Shown here: positions 5,049-20,516 of the stretch, piece after piece
Position numbering within the stretch: the stretch's first letter is position 1
How the letters are laid out: every line of letters starts with the position of its first letter
IMG/VR virus record: IMGVR_UViG_3300023179_000589
Location: 1-21,180 of that record
From: a virus
Length of the DNA stretch: 21,180 nucleotides
Reading direction: 5' to 3' (one strand)
Translations under genes and position numbers: made by a program
The notes under the pieces: model-generated
Told to the model about the DNA's origin: nothing
Seen by the model: the letters and a program-made list of their open reading frames with translations, nothing else
The model's database searches: none

Positions 5049-6629
5049 TTATCCTTTAGGCAAAACATTGGCATCTAAATCTAATCGTATCAAAAAATTC
5101 ATATCAACATCGCTGCGTTTACGTACGGGTTGTGCTAATTTTGCAATTGCTACCATTTGTCCGGCATCATTATACAATCCAATTGTTGTGATATACGGAG
5201 AAAATGCACTACTAGTTGCAAATGTACGATACGTAGAATCATCATCTGCTGTCAATGTTATGTTAGTAGACATATTAAAATCGCCAGCATCTAATTTTGT
5301 TACAACATTTAATTCATAAATTGTAACAGTGCTTCTATAAGATGCAGTAAATGGTGTTAATAATAAATCATTGATTCGATAATCTGCAGATGAAAAAACA
5401 ATGATTCCATGTTTTGCAAAAACGTTTCCTACATATGGTGTTTGCAATGCAGTTCCACCCTCACTACGGTCCGATAACGCACTTATCTGCGACCCGGATA
5501 ACGCGTTATTAAAGATTCTTATTTCATCTAAATAACCTTGTAGATTCAAACTATAGGGGCTAAAACCACCAATTTTTAATGAGTCTTTGTTATCAATTCT
5601 GGAAGATGCCGTTAACGGCGAATTATAAACTCCTAATAACGTGCTAGATGCAGATGAATGTAATACGCCATTAACATACATTTGCAATGAACTTCCTGTT
5701 TTTTGGCAAACAACATGTGTCCAACTTGATGTAACATATGTAGACGAAGTAATTGTTGTTTTGTATGATGTACTTCCTTGTGTCGTAAATACAAGTTGAT
5801 TGCTACCACTCAATTCGATGCGAAATGGAAATGTAGGTGTCGTGCTTTGTGATGCTTTTGTTGCAATTAATTGATTTGCAGAAGTAGTATTGCCGCCGCT
5901 AATAAAAAACGATACAGCATAATCATGATCTCGGTCATACAATCCATTTAATTCAGATTCAATATATCCAGATCCTGAAAAATATGCAGCCATTCCCAAT
6001 GCACGTTGTTGTCCAGACGTTGTAACAATACCCGGTACATATGTAACGCCCGAGCTAATATATGTTGTTCTAGATGCATCAAAATATTCATTGAAACCTT
6101 CATACCATTTTGCATCAGGAATAATTAAACTGGTATTGTATGCTGAATCAATAATATTTCCATACCGATCACCATAAAATGATCCAGACACCGATGACGT
6201 AAATACGAATGATGCAGGTTTTATTCCTTCGCCAATTCGTACTTGTGGTATTGATAAAATAGAAGCAGTTTGAAACAATGCTTTTTTTGTGCGTATTAAA
6301 TTGGTAGGTCCATATGTTTTTGCAGGATCAGCTTTGTGTTTATAATATAAATGATTTACAGAAAAATACGTAACACTTTGTAAACTGTCATCTACGTTCT
6401 TTGCATCATTAAATGTTAATTCACTACCCAAAGCAGGTAACACTTCAATATCTGTATATATTCCTTGTAAAGGCAATGCGCTTGAAGTAGCACTACCTGA
6501 ATATATAGTCCAAGATTTATAAGCAGGAAATGGTGTAATTGCTACATCGGACATATCAATTTTTTTAAAAACCGATGGATATGTTCCTTTGTATGCGTCT
6601 TCTTGTTCTTGAATTTTTGATTGTGCCAT
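5049..6629 (-). CDS. Virion structural protein with LamG-like domain and conserved phage C-terminal domain
   Basis: This is a 526-residue, Ser/Thr/Gly-rich protein. Residues about 213-387 fit a laminin-G/concanavalin-like jelly roll: an AAYFSGSGYIE entry strand, DYAVSFFI, SSWTHVVCQK, LQMYVNGVLHS, LKIGG and the closing GYLDEIRIFNNALS. Such domains bind glycans or other surface ligands. Residues about 400-520 form a second domain with KLDAGDFNMSTN and SPYITTIGLYNDAGQMVAIA. The protein at 6688-7995 has a related version, so the two are paralogous at that end. The N-terminal 200 residues are unrecognised. The ATG at 6629 is preceded by CAGGG inside a hairpin (6635-6673) that also encloses the putative late promoter, so its expression may depend on which transcript is made. 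It ends 2 nt before the kinase gene. Likely a tail, fibre-base or baseplate surface component. Confidence 0.68.
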   Translation of the reverse strand: MAQSKIQEQEDAYKGTYPSVFKKIDMSDVAITPFPAYKSWTIYSGSATSSALPLQGIYTDIEVLPALGSELTFNDAKNVDDSLQSVTYFSVNHLYYKHKADPAKTYGPTNLIRTKKALFQTASILSIPQVRIGEGIKPASFVFTSSVSGSFYGDRYGNIIDSAYNTSLIIPDAKWYEGFNEYFDASRTTYISSGVTYVPGIVTTSGQQRALGMAAYFSGSGYIESELNGLYDRDHDYAVSFFISGGNTTSANQLIATKASQSTTPTFPFRIELSGSNQLVFTTQGSTSYKTTITSSTYVTSSWTHVVCQKTGSSLQMYVNGVLHSSASSTLLGVYNSPLTASSRIDNKDSLKIGGFSPYSLNLQGYLDEIRIFNNALSGSQISALSDRSEGGTALQTPYVGNVFAKHGIIVFSSADYRINDLLLTPFTASYRSTVTIYELNVVTKLDAGDFNMSTNITLTADDDSTYRTFATSSAFSPYITTIGLYNDAGQMVAIAKLAQPVRKRSDVDMNFLIRLDLDANVLPKG

Positions 6630-6634
6630 ATAGT

Positions 6635-6673
6635 AAAAACCCTGCTACATTTAATATAAATATAACAGGGTTT
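6635..6673 (-). promoter_or_regulatory. Hairpin sequestering a Shine-Dalgarno, with a putative late promoter in its loop (also terminator-like)
   Basis: Perfect 8-bp arms, AAACCCTG (minus strand, 6673-6666) and CAGGGTTT (6644-6637), enclose a 21-nt loop holding the 14-mer at 6650-6663. The right arm contains the AGGG Shine-Dalgarno of the gene at 6629. A run of five T (6639-6635) overlaps the arm's end, so a transcript entering from 6688-7995 could terminate or hide the ribosome site. A transcript started in the loop lacks the left arm and leaves the site free. Confidence 0.6.
6650..6663 (-). promoter_or_regulatory. Putative late promoter element, ATATTTATATTAAA
   Basis: One of four copies of the asymmetric 14-mer found in all gaps of 27 nt or more in the virion block. 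It lies 20 nt before ATG 6629 and is identical to the copy at 8661-8674. Its core is the reverse complement of the T4 late element TATAAATA, so the orientation of any promoter is uncertain. Confidence 0.5.
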
Positions 6674-6687
6674 AAATCAGTGTAATT

Positions 6688-7995
6688 TTAAAAATCTAAT
6701 TTGACTCGTATAAGAGCTTCTCGTTGAAATGATTTCAATAACGGTTTAGAAAGTTTCGCTACTGCTAACAATTGTTGACTATCATTGTACAATCCTACCG
6801 TAGTAATATATGTTTTAGGATCACCAACAAATGTTGATTGTGCTAATTGACCAACGCTTCCCGTTACATATGATGGATTATTTGAAAAATTATATTCTGC
6901 ATTTTTAATTCTTACAAAATAATGTGTACTAGTAACTTTTTCAGAATTCCTTGCAATAAATCCATATGGGTCAGAAGTTGTAGGATCAGTAAATTTTCCA
7001 GAGCCAGATATTGAATGATACAACACAAAATGATTGTTTCCTTCAGAACTTGAACCAGTATTTGTTGCAAATCCTAATTGTTGATCAAGCATCTTGCCAT
7101 CTAAAATCAATGTACCATAATCTGGATATGCTAATCCATAATACGTTGGTGCCGTTGGTTTATAAACTCCCGAATTAATAGATCCAGAAACAATATTATA
7201 AATTTTGCCCGAATCGCCAATTTTAGGTGATGCTAAAGAAGAATCATCAATAAGTGTTACTATACTAGAAGTTGCATGCAATGTTACAGAACCAGTTGCA
7301 TTTGTAGCTCTATTTGCAACGCGTTGCAATGGAATTTCAAAATTGCCTGCATCTAAACGTTCTTTCATTCTGTTACGTTTAAAGTTTACAACGTAAATAT
7401 AATCTGTACTGCCAGATCCTGCTGTTGTAAACCGCGTATCAGTTGGTGGCAATAAAAGTTGACGATATTGAGAATAAACAGCTTTTGATGGAGAATCATT
7501 AAGTTGTCCTTGTGAATCGGATCCACTACCCAATGCATGACCAAATGCTAATGCAAATTGTACTGCAGCACCATCTGCTGTAGGTGTGTCTTGATAAACA
7601 TCAACATAATATCTACGTTGTGTGGTAGTTTGTGTTGATGCAGTAAAATATGTAGTTAAACTTGCTAAATTATCACTCCACATACCTCCCGTTACAACTT
7701 CCGTTTGATTGGAAATAATATCATTTGCTGAATCAAATTTTGTATACGTTCTACCATTACGGGCTAATATCTGTGATTGTGCTTGTTCTGCTACAATTTG
7801 ATTAGCAAGTTGTTGAGCTAATTGTCTTACTTGTTCATTTATTGTAGAATCAGTAGCATTAACGTTAGTTGATCCGGCATTAGGAGTAGTTTGAGATGCC
7901 GGAACATTTATAGCAGAAATTCTTGGTACTCCGCCAATTCTAGGTTGTTGTTTTAATTGTGCAATGAATTCATTCATTTTCATATTTTTTTCCAT
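6688..7995 (-). CDS. Virion structural protein, paralogous at its C-terminus to the LamG protein
   Basis: This 435-residue protein has a Gln/Ala-rich N-terminal helix (about 45-80, QLAQQLANQIVAEQAQ) and a long Ser/Thr/Gly-rich body. Its C-terminus contains RLDAGNFEIPL, TYITTVGLYNDSQQLLAVAK and ALIRVKLDF. This end matches the corresponding part of the protein at 5049-6629, pointing to an old duplication of a tail or baseplate surface domain. Function beyond virion structure is not recognisable. ATG 7995 directly abuts the upstream stop codon (TAAATG). A second in-frame ATG at 7983 has a GGA seven to eight bases before it and is a possible true start, removing four residues. The transcript probably ends at, or continues through, the hairpin at 6635-6673. 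Confidence 0.62.
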   Translation of the reverse strand: MEKNMKMNEFIAQLKQQPRIGGVPRISAINVPASQTTPNAGSTNVNATDSTINEQVRQLAQQLANQIVAEQAQSQILARNGRTYTKFDSANDIISNQTEVVTGGMWSDNLASLTTYFTASTQTTTQRRYYVDVYQDTPTADGAAVQFALAFGHALGSGSDSQGQLNDSPSKAVYSQYRQLLLPPTDTRFTTAGSGSTDYIYVVNFKRNRMKERLDAGNFEIPLQRVANRATNATGSVTLHATSSIVTLIDDSSLASPKIGDSGKIYNIVSGSINSGVYKPTAPTYYGLAYPDYGTLILDGKMLDQQLGFATNTGSSSEGNNHFVLYHSISGSGKFTDPTTSDPYGFIARNSEKVTSTHYFVRIKNAEYNFSNNPSYVTGSVGQLAQSTFVGDPKTYITTVGLYNDSQQLLAVAKLSKPLLKSFQREALIRVKLDF

Positions 7996-8646
7996 TTATA
8001 TTGTTGCAGTAGTTGCTTTTTTAACTGTTAAATTAATAGTAACACTTCCGCCGGTTTCATTAGCAATTACAGTTACTGTTGCAGTTTTATCAGACAACAA
8101 TTGTGTTTTAGCAATAATGCGGAATTCAAATCCGGCAACTGCAATGCTTTGTGCATCTTCATTGTCCCCAATAAAACGAGGTGTAGTTGGGAGCACTGAA
8201 TTTTGTAATGCTCGAGTAACTTGTATGTCAGCAACCGTAGAATCAGACAATATTGCTGTATATCCTAATGTTGCATTACCACCTCGGAAATTGCTTGTAT
8301 TAGGAGCAATAATTGTAGAATCACCCGGAGCTGCTAATGTAATTGTAGTATTGCCTACAGTTACAACAGGTATATTAGTTGTTTGTTTTGGCAAAGTAAC
8401 TAATTTATATTTTAATGCTTGAGTTTCATCCGGAATTGCTTCAGTAATTGGCATATTTTCAATGATTGTTCCATAATATGCAGTACCAAGTGGATGATCT
8501 GGATTCCATAATGAATAATCAATTTCATCATCTCCTACCGCAAACTGCGTAATATTAAATGCGTTGCCGCCTCGTGCTAAAAGTTCACGGCCTTTTAATG
8601 TTAAAATTGCGTCTATTGTAACGCTTGAATTGTCTAAATATCCCAT
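7996..8646 (-). CDS. Virion structural protein of the LTxxGRxxLA...FAxGDDEI family
   Basis: This 216-residue protein has an N-terminal module MGYLDNSSVTIDAILTLKGR ... NITQFAVGDDEIDYSLWNP. I recognise it as a recurrent N-terminal domain of structural proteins in T4-like environmental phages, with no assigned function that I know of. The rest is beta-rich (Val/Thr/Ile repeats such as VTVIANETGGSVTINLTV) and could be an Ig-like fold. It lies between the giant baseplate protein and two surface proteins, so it may be an adaptor or decoration component. ATG 8646 is preceded by TAAGGT with 8-nt spacing, which in turn directly follows the 14-mer at 8661-8674. It abuts the next gene (TAAATG). Confidence 0.6.
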   Translation of the reverse strand: MGYLDNSSVTIDAILTLKGRELLARGGNAFNITQFAVGDDEIDYSLWNPDHPLGTAYYGTIIENMPITEAIPDETQALKYKLVTLPKQTTNIPVVTVGNTTITLAAPGDSTIIAPNTSNFRGGNATLGYTAILSDSTVADIQVTRALQNSVLPTTPRFIGDNEDAQSIAVAGFEFRIIAKTQLLSDKTATVTVIANETGGSVTINLTVKKATTATI

Positions 8647-8660
8647 ATGTTTTTACCTTA

Positions 8661-8674
8661 TTTAATATAAATAT
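8661..8674 (-). promoter_or_regulatory. Putative late promoter element, ATATTTATATTAAA
   Basis: Copy of the 14-mer 14 nt before ATG 8646 and directly next to the AAGG ribosome-binding site. Identical to the copy at 6650-6663, but without a strong enclosing hairpin; only a 5-bp CCATA/TATGG pairing is possible. Confidence 0.5.
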
Positions 8675-14324: not shown

Positions 14325-17300
14325 TTATCCTATTTTTTTCACTGTTAATCTAGGTGGTGTATTATAACTAGTAACAGTTGATATAGATGAATTTGACGGA
14401 TTGACCCATACTCGATAATATCCTGGTGCTGAGATATATTCAACAACTATTCCAGTTACGGTTTGATCATTTGTACCCTCAACTGATTTATAATCATTGA
14501 ATAATGATACTAATGAAAATGCGCCGCCGGTACTAGCACCAGTTACTAATTTTATTAATATATCAACATCTGCACCTAATCCGTTCAAATAAACCTGAGA
14601 AATAAATTCATAATATCCAGGTTGTTTTATATAAACCGCTGCAGTAGTTAATCCAGAATTAACTAATTCAAAGAATGATGAAGATGTATTATAATCAGTC
14701 GTATTAAATCTAATGTTATTATCTGTACTATTTGTCAATGTTACGTTGTTGATACTATTTGAAAATCTTGCAACTGGCATACTAAAATTAGATGCTGTAT
14801 ATGCAATTTGTGCTTGTGATGCAAACGATGATGTTCCAAACAATGACCCCGTAAATGAACCAGTTGCACTTAAACTTGCCGTTAACATCATAAACGATGC
14901 AGTTGCAGTTACAATTGAACTTCCAGTAATTGTTATTAAATTTGCAATGCTACTAGAAATAGTACCAAATTGTCCTAATGATCCAGTAATGCTACCACTT
15001 ACATTTCCTGTGACATTGCCACCAATTAAACTGCCAGTAACATCTCCTTTTAATGAACCAGTTATTGAAGTAAAGTCTGCACTAGTTCCAACAACATTAC
15101 CCGTAACATTACCCGTTAAATTACCTACAACTGCCGTAGTAGATATATTAGGAACAGATAACATATTGGTATTAGGATTATATTCAAACCCAGTGTCTGC
15201 TTTAAGATTATTAGGTCCGGTACTATTGTTTGTAAATACTATAAACCGATTTGCATTTGTTGAATCTAATTGTATTTGAGCATTTTCGGCATTAGTTGCA
15301 TACGATGCCGTTCCATTTAACGATCCAGATAATGATCCAGTAAATAATCCATTAATTGATAATGTACTATTTGGGGTTGCTATTGAACTACTAAATGATT
15401 GCAATCCAGTAATTCTAGTTGAAAAAGAAGCCGAATCTAATGGATAATTAACGGTATTCAATGCCAAACTAGCTGAAAATGAAGCAGAATTAATTAAATA
15501 CGAAGTATAATTTGCAGCAATACTAGAACTATTTGCGACGATGCTCGATGAAAATGAAGCTGATACATTTAAGAAGCTACCACTCAACGTGGCAATGCTT
15601 GCACTATTAATTATTATGTTTGCAGAAAATGATGAAGAATTGGTTAAAAAACTTCCACTCAAAGTGGCAATGCTTGAACTATTTGCGACGATGCTCGATG
15701 AAAATGAAGCAGAATTAATTAAATACGAAGTATAATTTGCAGCAATACTAGAACTATTTGCGACGATGCTCGATGAAAATGATGCTGAATCAATTAAATA
15801 CGAAGCATAATTTGCAGCAATGCTTGCCGAAAATGATGCTGAATTTAATAAATAATTGTTTTGGTTTGCGGCAATGCTTGATGAAAATGATGCTGAATCA
15901 ATTAAATACGAAGCATAATTTGCAGCAATGCTTGCCGAAAATGATGCTGAATTTAATAAATAATTGTTTTGGTTTGCGGCAATGCTTGCACTATTTGCAG
16001 CAATGCTTGCTGAAAATGATGCTGAATTTAATAAATAATTGTTTTGGTTTACAACAATACTAGAACTATTTGCAGCAATACTTGCTGAAAATGATGCTGA
16101 ATTAATTAGATATGAAGTTTGATTTGCTGCAATACTAGAACTATTTGCTGCAATACTAGAACTAAATGAAGCTAAATTTGCAAGATATACACTACTTGTC
16201 CATGCTGTAAAAGAAGCCGTTGTTAAAAACTCCGGAGTTATTGATATTGTTAATGTTTTTGTTGATGGGTTTGTTGTTAATGCAATATCATTTCCTGCAG
16301 TTAATGTAATAGTATCTGTTGCATTACTAGCAACAATAGCACTTTGTCCGGTTACTGCAAACGTTGTAAATGAACTACCCGAATAAACACCAGATCCAGA
16401 TACATTTCCATATAATGCTGCAGACGCAGTATAATATAATTGTCCAGTTCCTGTATCAATTACAACTACATTATTTAAATTTTGTTGCGATGTTGCAGGA
16501 ACAAATAAACTATTAGTAACTGTTAAATTGCCATTAATGTTTTGATTTCCTAATACATTAACAGAACCCGTAATATGTACATCGCCAACTTCAAATCTGT
16601 GACCGGCTAAACCAGCAATATATGAAATTCCCGAATTTGGAATAGTTTCTTCAATATGATTGGTAAACAAACTATATCCCGAATTAACTTCTATATAACC
16701 GTTAACGAATTGATTACCTACAAATGTATTAGATCCCGTTGTTGCAACTGAACCACTAAATACTTCTAATGCAGTTGATCTATTAGCAAATGATGCTGAA
16801 TTATTTTGGTATGATGCAGTGAATGATGTGAATTGTGTTTCGCTTGCATAATACGTATCTAAACTAGAACTAAAAGATTCTAATGCCGTAATTCTTGAGG
16901 AATTAGATGCAGAAACATTTAAGAAACTACCACTTAACGTAGCAATGCTTGCACTATTAATTATTATGTTTGCAGCAAATGATGCTGAGTTTGTTACGAG
17001 ATTAGCAATTCCGGAACTAAATGATGCTGATGTTGATAAATAACTAGATGATAATGTTGCAATGCTAGAACTATTAATAATGATTTTAGAAGCAAATGAT
17101 GCAGAATCAATTATATAATTGTTTTGATTTGTAACAATACTAGAACTAAATGAAGCTGAATCAATTAAATATGAAGTTTGGTTTGCTGCAATGCTTGAAC
17201 TATTTGCGGTAATTCTAGAAGAAAATGATGCCGAATCAATTAAATATGATCCACTTAAAGTAGCAATGCTTGAACTATTTGCGGTAATTCTAGAAGAAAA

Positions 17301-17621
17301 TGATGCCGAATCTACATTGTAAGTAAACGGACTTCCGGTTATCTCATAATTAGTACCAACTGTATTTATAATGATATTTGGCCCGGCAACTAAACTTACA
17401 TATGATGCAGTTATTGAATGATTTGACCAACTTGAAGTTCCTAAAAGGCTAGCAGTTACTCCTTGAGTAACAATTAGTGATCCGGTAATTTTCATTGAAC
17501 CAGTTAATTGTACCGATTCAGTAATTGCACCGGTAAATATATCATATAAATCAGATACAAAACTTGCTGAAATTAAACCGCCAGCAACAATTTGAGCACG
17601 ATTTGATGATAGTTTGCCCAT
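14325..17621 (-). CDS. Long repeat-rich tail-fibre protein (1098 aa)
   Basis: This protein is dominated by Ser/Ala/Asn/Gly-rich repeats. An N-terminal head (1-100) contains SMKITGSLIVTQGVTASLLG. Two blocks (about 103-285 and 470-750) repeat the short unit SASFSSSIAANSSSIA with N/Q-x-x-YL linkers, about twenty times in all. A GSLTG/VTGN-type beta segment (about 830-890) follows, and a compact C-terminal domain (about 950-1098) contains PGYYEFISQVYLNG, compatible with a C1q/TNF-like receptor-binding jelly roll. Hydrophobic spacing in the repeats suits a fibrous trimer. It would be the host-recognition fibre or a baseplate-mounted fibre. ATG 17621 has AAGGA nine nt upstream, and the 14-mer at 17636-17649 lies directly before that. 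DNA-level repeats (15475-15988) imply recent unit duplication. A chaperone gene is not seen nearby. Confidence 0.75.
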   Translation of the reverse strand: MGKLSSNRAQIVAGGLISASFVSDLYDIFTGAITESVQLTGSMKITGSLIVTQGVTASLLGTSSWSNHSITASYVSLVAGPNIIINTVGTNYEITGSPFTYNVDSASFSSRITANSSSIATLSGSYLIDSASFSSRITANSSSIAANQTSYLIDSASFSSSIVTNQNNYIIDSASFASKIIINSSSIATLSSSYLSTSASFSSGIANLVTNSASFAANIIINSASIATLSGSFLNVSASNSSRITALESFSSSLDTYYASETQFTSFTASYQNNSASFANRSTALEVFSGSVATTGSNTFVGNQFVNGYIEVNSGYSLFTNHIEETIPNSGISYIAGLAGHRFEVGDVHITGSVNVLGNQNINGNLTVTNSLFVPATSQQNLNNVVVIDTGTGQLYYTASAALYGNVSGSGVYSGSSFTTFAVTGQSAIVASNATDTITLTAGNDIALTTNPSTKTLTISITPEFLTTASFTAWTSSVYLANLASFSSSIAANSSSIAANQTSYLINSASFSASIAANSSSIVVNQNNYLLNSASFSASIAANSASIAANQNNYLLNSASFSASIAANYASYLIDSASFSSSIAANQNNYLLNSASFSASIAANYASYLIDSASFSSSIVANSSSIAANYTSYLINSASFSSSIVANSSSIATLSGSFLTNSSSFSANIIINSASIATLSGSFLNVSASFSSSIVANSSSIAANYTSYLINSASFSASLALNTVNYPLDSASFSTRITGLQSFSSSIATPNSTLSINGLFTGSLSGSLNGTASYATNAENAQIQLDSTNANRFIVFTNNSTGPNNLKADTGFEYNPNTNMLSVPNISTTAVVGNLTGNVTGNVVGTSADFTSITGSLKGDVTGSLIGGNVTGNVSGSITGSLGQFGTISSSIANLITITGSSIVTATASFMMLTASLSATGSFTGSLFGTSSFASQAQIAYTASNFSMPVARFSNSINNVTLTNSTDNNIRFNTTDYNTSSSFFELVNSGLTTAAVYIKQPGYYEFISQVYLNGLGADVDILIKLVTGASTGGAFSLVSLFNDYKSVEGTNDQTVTGIVVEYISAPGYYRVWVNPSNSSISTVTSYNTPPRLTVKKIG
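15475..15557. repeat. Perfect 83-nt direct repeat, copy 1 (copy 2 at 15700-15782)
   Basis: Starts gaaaatgaagcagaattaat and is identical in both copies at a 225-nt (75-codon) offset, including third-codon positions. This is much closer than the protein repeat requires and indicates recent copying or gene conversion. Confidence 0.85.
15700..15782. repeat. Perfect 83-nt direct repeat, copy 2
   Basis: Second copy of the 83-nt element at 15475-15557. Confidence 0.85.
15781..15988. repeat. Tandem 108-nt repeat, 100 nt identical in the two adjacent copies
   Basis: Copy 1 starts at 15781 and copy 2 at 15889; the first 100 nt of each are identical, starting gatgctgaatcaattaaata. The period is 36 codons. 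Identity extends upstream of both copies with a single mismatch. Confidence 0.88.
16770..17315. repeat. Coding repeat block 1 of the fibre gene
   Basis: About nine diverged copies of the SASFSS.I unit (residues about 103-285), more degenerate than block 2 and separated from it by about 190 non-repeat residues. Confidence 0.7.
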
Positions 17622-17635
17622 AATAAATGATCCTT

Positions 17636-17649
17636 TTTTGTATAAATAT
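17636..17649 (-). promoter_or_regulatory. Putative late promoter element, ATATTTATACAAAA
   Basis: Copy of the 14-mer 14 nt before ATG 17621. It is followed at once by the AAGGA ribosome-binding site (17635-17631), so a transcript started here would have a very short leader. Confidence 0.5.
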
Positions 17650-17653
17650 GGAA

Positions 17654-19534
17654 TTAGTAATTAATTACACGTCCTTTTATATCTTTATCTGGAAACTTAA
17701 TTTCAAAAATACTAGGATCTAACGAAGGATAAATAACTCCATTTTTTGTAGCTGAAGGCAGATCATATATATTGCCTGAATAATTTTGTGAAGTATCATA
17801 TAAATTATTAAATGTTACATTTACTACAGATTGTACTCCTTTGATATTTCCTAATAAATTTGTAACATCTGATTTCATAATTGGTTGATTAATTTGCCAG
17901 CGATCAATATTGAAATATGATTTAACAGCATCAATACATTTTAATAAAACTTCATTGCTATTATAATTAGATAACACTGTTATTTCAAATTGTACGCCAA
18001 TATTAATTACAAATGCATCTTTAATGTTTATTGCATCAGTTAATATACGATAATAATTTAAATAATTTTTTAAATTTTCTTTAACTGCCTGATTAAGTGC
18101 AATAAGTTGTTTGTTTTGATTGAATCCTAAAATATACAAATTCATTGCCAATGGATTTGCAATTTTAGTTTGTTCAAATTCTTGTTGTGAAATTTGATCA
18201 TCAGGAACAATATATGCTTTTGCAACACTACCAAATTTTGCCGGCATTGAATAAACACGAATAATATAATCATCTCGCGTTACTAAACGATTTTGTGTAG
18301 CAAAATTTCCCAATGCATTGTTTTTAATGTCTTCTAATGTATCTGCAGTTTTAGCCCCAACAGCTGGATTAACATTTGTTACTGCTACTGTGGATTTGAT
18401 AAATGTAGTTGTTCCTACATTAATATTAGAATTGATATCATCTGTAAATTGTATAGATACTATATTAGTTAATACACCTGCAGGTACATTATCAACAATA
18501 CCATTTCCAACCGTATATGTAACAGTTAGTGTGGTATTTGATGGTGCTTGACCATATGTTTTAGTATACAAAAAATTTGATGGATCAATATTTACATCTA
18601 TATTTTGGCGCAAAGCTGCCAATCCATTTCCTACATTAGTTGGATTTGGAATAATTTCTTGATCATTATTATCAGAAATACCAGAACCAAATTGCATTTC
18701 TAAACGATTATCGCTACGTAAACGCGTAACAAATCGTTTTGCAGTTTTACGCAATTTTAATAAACTAGGAGAACCTGATCGATATTGTGATAATTCTGGA
18801 TCATTTTCTGCTAAATTTGGAACTTCTTCAAAAATAGTATCTTGTGCTAAGTATGGAACTTCATGCCATTTATCACCATCAGATTCCGTAACAGAAATAA
18901 TTTCAATAATGTTTGATTCTGGTAAAACTACTTTATCATATGCAATAGCGTTAGTAAATGTAAATGATGTAGTTTTTACATCTCCAGATACTGCCATTAC
19001 TTGTTTTTTCAACAAATAATAAGTTGGTAATTTTGTAGTTGGATCAGATTCATATATTGTTATTTCGGTTGTATTAATTGACGATGAAAAAGAAAAATCA
19101 ATTGAATCCAATGTTCTAAAAATAGATGCACCATTGTTTTGTTGAACTCGCATACCTGGTTTGATTGATAATGCATAATCAAAATCTGGACGTACGTTTA
19201 CACCAGTGCCAACAGCAGGAAGTAATTGATACACATCCAATGTAACGTATGCAGGTACAACATTTTTTGGTTGATATCCTAAATTTTTTGCAATATCAAA
19301 TATATTGGATCGTTCAGATGCTTGATCTAATAATGATTCTCGCAAATTAACATCCATGTAATATGATAAAACATCACCTACATATGCTGACATTTCTAAA
19401 AACAAAGAACCAGGTGCTGATTGATTAAAATCAGTGTATGTTGTAGGAAAATACTGTTGTGCAAAATCAATTAAATTTTTTCTAAATTGATTAAAATCTT
19501 TGCCTAAATATGAAATATCTTTTTTTGTTTCCAT
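17654..19534 (-). CDS. 6: Baseplate wedge protein gp6-like (baseplate J family)
   Basis: This 626-residue protein has the N-terminal signature of T4-type gp6: YLGKDFNQFRKNLIDFAQQY, then NQSAPGSLFLEMSAYVGDVL ending SYYMDVN (37-63), and ERSNIFDIAKNLGYQPK. T4 gp6 is 660 residues. In T4, gp6 dimers form the continuous inner ring of the baseplate wedge, which rearranges when the sheath contracts. The C-terminal half is beta-rich and ends near IFEIKFPDKDIKGRVINY. I place the start at ATG 19534, not at an in-frame GTG 45 nt further upstream, because TAAGGAA sits 4 nt before this ATG and overlaps the gp25 stop codon. It lies directly downstream of gp25, the usual neighbour in contractile-tail baseplates. 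The gene symbol is by analogy with T4. Confidence 0.85.
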   Translation of the reverse strand: METKKDISYLGKDFNQFRKNLIDFAQQYFPTTYTDFNQSAPGSLFLEMSAYVGDVLSYYMDVNLRESLLDQASERSNIFDIAKNLGYQPKNVVPAYVTLDVYQLLPAVGTGVNVRPDFDYALSIKPGMRVQQNNGASIFRTLDSIDFSFSSSINTTEITIYESDPTTKLPTYYLLKKQVMAVSGDVKTTSFTFTNAIAYDKVVLPESNIIEIISVTESDGDKWHEVPYLAQDTIFEEVPNLAENDPELSQYRSGSPSLLKLRKTAKRFVTRLRSDNRLEMQFGSGISDNNDQEIIPNPTNVGNGLAALRQNIDVNIDPSNFLYTKTYGQAPSNTTLTVTYTVGNGIVDNVPAGVLTNIVSIQFTDDINSNINVGTTTFIKSTVAVTNVNPAVGAKTADTLEDIKNNALGNFATQNRLVTRDDYIIRVYSMPAKFGSVAKAYIVPDDQISQQEFEQTKIANPLAMNLYILGFNQNKQLIALNQAVKENLKNYLNYYRILTDAINIKDAFVINIGVQFEITVLSNYNSNEVLLKCIDAVKSYFNIDRWQINQPIMKSDVTNLLGNIKGVQSVVNVTFNNLYDTSQNYSGNIYDLPSATKNGVIYPSLDPSIFEIKFPDKDIKGRVINY

Positions 19535-19538
19535 GTTT

Positions 19539-19544
19539 TCCTTA
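19539..19544 (-). promoter_or_regulatory. Shine-Dalgarno of gp6 overlapping the gp25 stop
   Basis: AAGGAA on the minus strand, 4 nt before ATG 19534. It shares bases with the TAA stop of the gp25 gene (19544-19542), so gp6 translation is probably coupled to that of gp25, and this excludes the longer GTG start. Confidence 0.7.
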
Positions 19545-19991
19545 AGGCGTAATTGCCAACGTTCCATTTTGATTAACACCTAATGTTAATGTTTTTTCCT
19601 GAGCATCATATGTTGGTCTGAATGTTATTGTAACGATAACATCGTAAATTAAATTAGGATCATCGTCTGTTGTTTGTACATCAATGTTTATTAATTCAAT
19701 ATCAGGTAACCATTGATTAATTGGAGCTGTTATATAGTCAACAATATCTTGTTTTATTTCAGATGTATTTGGTTGAAATATAATTTTTAATAAATCTGTA
19801 CCAAATGTTGGCAACATAATACGTTCGCCTTTTCTTGTTAATAACAATGTTTTTAACTTAGCAAATTCCTGTTCAATACTAGTATATGTTGAATCAAATA
19901 CAGCAACGCCGTTAGCTCCCAACGAAACACCTAACGTAGATACATTGGTTGTTCGAATAACATCAGCAGCAACAACAACTTGATACCCCAT
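19542..19991 (-). CDS. 25: Baseplate wedge protein gp25-like
   Basis: This 149-residue protein matches the gp25/TssE-type family. Residues 39-74 read IEQEFAKLKTLLLTRKGERI followed by MLPTFGTDLLKIIF, the conserved core of gp25 (T4 gp25 is 132 residues). A later IELINIDVQTTDDDP and VIVTITFRP complete the typical beta sheet. gp25 joins the gp6-gp7 core of the baseplate wedge to the sheath and helps start sheath polymerisation. Its start overlaps the upstream stop by 1 nt (TAATG), with AAAGG six nt upstream. The N-terminal 35 residues are a variable extension. Position directly before gp6 supports the call. The gene symbol is by analogy with T4. Confidence 0.88.
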   Translation of the reverse strand: MGYQVVVAADVIRTTNVSTLGVSLGANGVAVFDSTYTSIEQEFAKLKTLLLTRKGERIMLPTFGTDLLKIIFQPNTSEIKQDIVDYITAPINQWLPDIELINIDVQTTDDDPNLIYDVIVTITFRPTYDAQEKTLTLGVNQNGTLAITP

Positions 19992-20494
19992 TACATACCT
20001 TTCTTTTTGTTAATTGCTTGCATTAATGCTGAATAATCTCGAGTCATTGCTTGTTGCACTTCTTGTGGAACTTCAAATGTTTTACCCGTTTCGGGGTCTT
20101 CTATTACTTTTGGTGCTGTAGGTGCAATGCCCATTGCTTCGCGCATATTTTGTCGCATTGTTCCAAAATCAACTGCATTCTGCGAATTCATTCGAATTTC
20201 TTCAATGCCTTCATTCATTAAATCTCGAAAATTATTCATAGCCAATGGTTCTTGTTCAAATAAACTATCCGTTTCATTTAAAACAGAAGCCCATTTATTG
20301 TCAGTAAATTGTACTTTGTTTTTAGATTGTTGAATTGGTTTAGAATTAATTTGTATAGGTGTTGTTGTTTTTTGTTCTTGATTTATTTCTGTAATTGTAG
20401 ATTGTAAACCTTCCCGAAGAATTTCAGTTAATTCTTCTTTTACAACTTCTCGCACGGCAGTTTTAAGTGCTTTTATCAATGTTTTTGAATCCAT
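19991..20494 (-). CDS. Charged, mostly helical hypothetical protein upstream of gp25
   Basis: This 167-residue protein has no recognised domain. Residues 1-45 form a strongly amphipathic, charged helix (TLIKALKTAVREVVKEELTE), probably a coiled coil. A Gln/Pro/Thr-rich linker (about 40-60) follows, then a second helical half with ETGKTFEVPQEVQQAMTRDY near the end. No signal peptide or membrane segment is visible. It shares a 1-nt overlap with gp25, suggesting joint expression and a role in baseplate assembly or the virion (an assembly factor such as T4 gp26 or gp51 is one possibility, not supported by sequence). ATG 20494 follows the 14-mer at 20503-20516 by only 8 nt and has at most a weak AAAG ribosome site. 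Confidence 0.6.
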   Translation of the reverse strand: MDSKTLIKALKTAVREVVKEELTEILREGLQSTITEINQEQKTTTPIQINSKPIQQSKNKVQFTDNKWASVLNETDSLFEQEPLAMNNFRDLMNEGIEEIRMNSQNAVDFGTMRQNMREAMGIAPTAPKVIEDPETGKTFEVPQEVQQAMTRDYSALMQAINKKKGM

Positions 20495-20502
20495 ATGAAT
20501 AC

Positions 20503-20516
20503 TTTTATATAAATAT
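20503..20516 (-). promoter_or_regulatory. Putative late promoter element, ATATTTATATAAAA
   Basis: Copy of the 14-mer only 8 nt before ATG 20494, in the 27-nt gap after the upstream gene. The short distance would give a nearly leaderless transcript if it is a T4-late-like element. Confidence 0.45.

Follow-up and report, generated by a model that had tools for sequence, protein, structure and literature searches.

The window, i.e. the whole stretch of 21,180 bases of a virus record that was analysed, is one minus-strand virion/baseplate gene cluster. Within it, a hairpin lies in the 58-nt gap between the genes at 6688-7995 and 5049-6629. The minus strand of this gap reads TTTAAACCCTGTTATATTTATATTAAATGTAGCAGGGTTTTTACTAT-ATG, and positions 6673-6637 of this strand read AAACCCTGTTATATTTATATTAAATGTAGCAGGGTTT, followed by TTACTAT-ATG. 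The features of the locus are as follows:

19542-19991: gp25 family gene, member of the cluster
17654-19579: gene for a gp6-like wedge protein, member of the cluster
6688-7995, minus strand: gene upstream of the hairpin, an ORF of 435 aa, the transcript of which is predicted to end at the hairpin
6637-6673, minus strand: hairpin with 5' arm 6657-6673 AAACCCTGTTATATTTA, loop 6654-6656 TAT and 3' arm 6637-6653 TAAATGTAGCAGGGTTT
6650-6663, minus strand: ATATTTATATTAAA, a promoter-like element with the consensus ATATTTATAWWAAA, within the hairpin's apical half
6648-6650, minus strand: predicted transcript start, which follows the first T of TATTTATA by ~13 nt
6640-6643, minus strand: AGGG, candidate ribosome site within the 3' arm, 10 nt before the ATG, with a predicted anti-SD pairing of -3.3 kcal/mol
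6632-6639, minus strand: putative terminator tail TTTTTACT, its ACT being enriched after the hairpin-T-run sites of the phage group
5049-6629, minus strand: LamG gene downstream of the hairpin, start codon at 6629, encoding a virion-type protein of 526 aa with a Laminin_G_3 domain (Pfam PF13385, E 1.6e-17)

Comparison of the 435-aa protein with Pfam and PHROG gave no match.

The initial annotation had described 8-bp arms separated by a 21-nt loop, with AGGG at 6640-6643 in the right arm and the 14-mer ATATTTATATTAAA between the arms. All of these elements are present on the minus strand; however, folding showed that the supposed loop is mostly paired, giving a stem of 17 bp with four G-C pairs and a loop of only 3 nt. 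The region folds at -20.7 kcal/mol (MFE z -4.36), and 0/200 shuffles were equally good. Moreover, the hairpin is the most stable 55-mer on the minus strand of the window, and it is the sole minus-strand site in the window that passes a scan for a hairpin followed by a T-run.

The conservation of the hairpin was examined in 57 distinct upstream contexts, which were obtained from 80 IMG/VR relatives of the LamG protein together with two further scans. Of these contexts, 57/57 contained the core ATATTTAT and 50/57 a GC-armed hairpin, with arms that take forms such as CCCTG/CAGGG, CCCCG/CGGGG, CCTCG/CGAGG and CCCG/CGGG. Among 36 distinct relatives, 93.2% of the stem cells were paired, vs 36-56% when the partner was slid. 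Compensatory arm changes, which the initial annotation had named as its own test, were found: two-sided changes occurred in 34 stem cells vs 8.7 in shuffles (0/500; 36 distinct sequences), these cells not being independent events. Changes were counted on the protein tree without these columns, giving 13 pair changes at stem position 1, nine at position 3 (C-G/T-A), three at position 4 and nine at position 6. The strand of the stem that bears the promoter motif is fixed, while the opposite strand varies mostly among letters that preserve pairing (A-U/G-U), and RNAalifold, unprompted, recovered the same helix. In total, these computations demonstrate a covarying RNA hairpin.

A T-run of at least 4 T follows the stem in 47 of the 50 hairpin-bearing contexts; in a few relatives the T tract is interrupted (GGGTTTATACT, GGGGCTTATTACT, GGGGCTTTTAACT). 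Two classes of relatives depart from this arrangement. Seven of the 57 contexts, which form one nested clade (100*), have AT-only flanks and have lost both the arms and the T-run while retaining the promoter core; the absence of GC arms in this clade reads as a derived loss, and these sequences have no SD at all. In this clade (L055, L062, L074, L282, L290, L292, L294), TAATAGA, which comes directly after the promoter core, is complementary to TCTATTA at the start codon and may form a start-codon hairpin like that of soc, the two strands showing no covariation in support of the pairing. In two other relatives (L300 class), the hairpin and T6 are kept; however, the ATG lies 23 nt beyond the AGG of the arm and, therefore, the arm cannot hide the ribosome site. 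In Mel-JY01, only ~1-2 nt precede the homologous gene and there is therefore no room for the element.

The promoter-like motif recurs in the window at sites without a hairpin:

8661-8674, minus strand: exact second copy of ATATTTATATTAAA, 5' of the gene at 7996-8646
17641-17649, minus strand: promoter-like ATATTTATA, 5' of the gene at 14325-17621
20503-20516, minus strand: copy with one mismatch, ATATTTATATAAAA, 5' of the gene at 19991-20494

Within the window alone, motif counts were not above those in shuffles, and a promoter signal became evident only when position and strand were considered in larger relatives. In six of these, which are 65-169 kb long, TATTTATA occurs preferentially between genes and on the coding strand; in G001, 26 matches fall in 13 kb of intergenic DNA vs 12 in ~147 kb of coding DNA, and the reversed motif has 3 intergenic matches. 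The sharp consensus ATATTTATAWWAAA was derived from 90 sites with nothing conserved at -35, and the distance from motif to start codon is mostly 18-35 nt at the sites across the group. The 14-mer, which had been proposed as a promoter-like signal, is thus recurrent, strand-biased, intergenic and located in the apical part of the hairpin, and the promoter consensus is group-wide. As had also been noted, it differs from the T4 promoter: ATATTTATAWWAAA is directional and, while its sites have the layout of T4 late promoters, reverse-complementing its core yields that of T4. The possibility that the motif is a T4 TATAAATA promoter on the opposite strand was rejected, the reverse orientation being rare in intergenic DNA. 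The predicted transcript start was derived from the geometry of T4 late promoters and the shortest common motif-to-ATG distance, 18 nt.

Nearly all copies of the motif, in 263 motif contexts, lie outside hairpins; the strong nested form occurs solely before the LamG gene, the rest being at control level, and a covariance-model search of ~750 kb found no second nested copy above noise. In immuto, a Flavobacterium phage (L125, L126), TATATTTAG is strand-biased (20 vs 2 reversed) and follows several terminators; it is possibly a cousin of the ATATTTATAWWAAA promoter class.

An ORF family (e.g. L124:1465-2184, L086:10188-10886) with conserved members in Mel-JY01, immuto and each of the six larger relatives is a candidate for the late sigma factor, with a faint likeness to gp55 (hhalign E 0.035, probability 1.5%; AlphaFold model pLDDT 46). 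In the comparison with PHROG, phrog_234 was matched in immuto only (E 0.008).

The genomes of the same relatives contain 61 sites on the coding strand at which a stem precedes a run of at least 5 T. ACT comes next at 30 of these 61 sites, five of the 30 being LamG copies, vs 14 of 1,222 other T-runs (Fisher p 4e-33); on the opposite strand, an ACT tail was found at 2/32 sites. The tail is typically TTTTTTACTGTT; it was not among the commonest tails of immuto, Mel-JY01 and the stretch of T4 examined, the numbers in this comparison being small. In the TTTTTTACTGTT tails (L085-L120, e.g. L088:10192, L089:4727, L090:18029, coding strand), the ACTG after the T-run is conserved though it lies beyond the usual RNA 3' end. 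Because ACT marks the hairpin-T-run sites of the group, TTTTTACT of the LamG hairpin is, as judged from sequence, the group's own terminator tail. As expected of an intrinsic terminator, a stable GC-bearing stem leads directly into a T-run at the LamG site. Together with the interrupted T tracts of a few relatives, three points count against the explanation preferred below: short T-runs are common in AT-rich DNA; ACT adjoins the start codon at the LamG site, so that leader constraints could help to preserve it; and the TTTTT in the window overlaps the stem's own TTT.

Tandem units, in which a terminator is followed after 8-12 nt (~9) by a promoter, were found at 12 other sites in these phages. 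The LamG site comprises the same two parts; however, here they are nested, an arrangement found only before the LamG gene, and the site is apparently a nested form of the terminator and promoter pair that the group elsewhere carries in tandem. Compared with an intrinsic (Rho-independent) terminator, the element shares the A-tract, the GC stem, the T-run and the group's TTTTTACT tail; it differs in that the promoter of the next gene lies inside the stem-loop and in that it ends ~6 nt before a start codon.

The likeness to T4 gene e that was pointed out in the initial annotation is real. In the T4 record, the e hairpin carries TATAAATA in its loop and GGAGG in its 3' arm, with no T-run after the stem, while in soc the start codon is hidden. 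As in e, and also in soc, I-TevI and Aeh1 mobE, the LamG element has a promoter in a hairpin so placed that RNA started there, here at the predicted start, would not contain the 5' arm; a putative SD lies within the 3' arm and a late gene comes next. Unlike in e, the gp55-type TATAAATA is replaced by ATATTTATAWWAAA, the promoter forms part of the stem itself, which has 17 bp and a 3-nt loop, the stem is succeeded by a T-run and terminator tail, the SD is weaker and farther from the ATG, and RNA from upstream would be expected to originate at a promoter of this class as well (8661-8674). Altogether, the element is most likely a promoter nested in a terminator, and a variant of the gene-e design.

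Our preferred explanation, which we consider probable, is that the transcript of the upstream virion gene ends at an intrinsic terminator, the apical half of which contains a phage promoter of a -10-only type that serves the next gene. Promoter firing, the start site, the efficiency of termination and translational masking are predictions of this model. RNA arriving from upstream would form the whole hairpin and halt in the TTTTT tract, and in any read-through RNA the LamG ribosome site would be locked in the 3' arm. By contrast, polymerase starting inside the element (~6649) would leave out the 5' arm; because this arm is missing, the resulting RNA could neither terminate nor mask its own ribosome site, and the gene would be translated. 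As a net effect, the LamG virion gene would be isolated from transcription upstream of it and would rely on its own promoter. In support of this model, the tandem units at 12 other sites indicate that the two parts belong together, and loss of the GC arms in one derived clade went along with loss of the T-run but not of the promoter core.

A stronger version of this model would hold that the element is a self-insulating switch under direct selection, with one hairpin serving as terminator, silencer of read-through and carrier of the promoter, with sigma fixing one strand while the partner follows by compensation, with conservation across a large uncultured clade and with a promoter class that mirrors that of T4. 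We regard this version as tenable, if somewhat doubtful. A literature search for a promoter inside a terminator loop returned nothing usable, which is weak evidence of absence.

The main reading in the initial annotation was a pure translational gate like that of T4 gene e, in which the promoter lies in the loop and the hairpin merely hides the ribosome site with no real termination. This design has precedents, as e, soc and I-TevI have been described as gates that keep early RNA silent (PMC3014915, PMC2988022). It also fits the finding that the 3' arm holds the only purine-rich ribosome-site candidate: SD use in the group is moderate (mean -2.6 vs -1.2 kcal/mol shuffled, with a G peak at -11 to -7), and the LamG arms pair with the anti-SD at -3.2 to -7.1 kcal/mol. 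The part of the proposal that places the sole SD candidate in the right arm stands, while the block to translation itself is weakened by the anti-SD pairing, which is modest and at the far edge of the usual spacing range, and by the L300 class, which keeps the hairpin where masking of the SD is impossible. Moreover, the T4 e stem has no T-run behind it, whereas 47 of the 50 hairpins examined here do, in most cases with the tail typical of terminators in the group. Finally, the T4 timing logic, i.e. that early read-through is silenced, does not fit: the nearest promoter-like element upstream, at 8661-8674, belongs to the class of the nested one and, therefore, no early/late contrast would have to be enforced. 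We consider a pure gate unlikely. The evidence for termination in the T-run, to which the initial annotation gave only a brief mention, is no weaker than that for blocked translation, given the TTTTTACT tail and the L300 class. Because the L300 class keeps the hairpin and T6 far from the ATG and the AT-rich clade is without an SD, we rank termination and insulation first and masking second; masking of the ribosome site in read-through RNA is plausible. Likewise, because the upstream promoter is of the same class, the likely purpose of a promoter nested in a terminator would be independence from upstream transcription, not timing.

Termination is usually incomplete, and the convincing hairpin and T-run could be a terminator only, with the promoter-like motif unused and the LamG gene expressed by read-through; this is very improbable, as the core motif is unchanged in all contexts, even in the clade without arms and T-run, and the same element precedes many other genes. 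The least probable reading is an RNA operator or processing site, where the hairpin with its fixed upper strand is bound by a protein of the phage or host, either an autogenous repressor or an RNase. Protein-RNA recognition is likewise compatible with covariation in a stem whose apical strand is invariant; however, this strand is the promoter consensus that occurs elsewhere without hairpins, little is invariant outside this consensus, and no second such hairpin was present in ~750 kb.

In this group of uncultured T4-like phages, a stretch of ~40 bases thus seems capable of terminating one message, masking any read-through and initiating the following message. If true, this would be a natural part of ~40 bp able to close one transcription unit and open another with no read-through between them, and the T4 gene-e trick would recur, combined with termination and with another promoter, in a distant group of phages. 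The covariation set makes the design directly testable, and the promoter consensus together with the terminator signature allows operon mapping in a large uncultured phage group.

Two observations concern other proteins of the window. The gene at 14325-17621 encodes a fibre-like protein of 1098 aa with ~25-aa repeats (75-nt direct repeats) that is rich in SASFSSSIAANSSSI. The proteins of the adjacent genes at 6688-7995 and 5049-6629 have a C-terminal motif in common (TTVGLYND.. / TTIGLYNDAGQ..AKLAQP), which suggests a common attachment domain.
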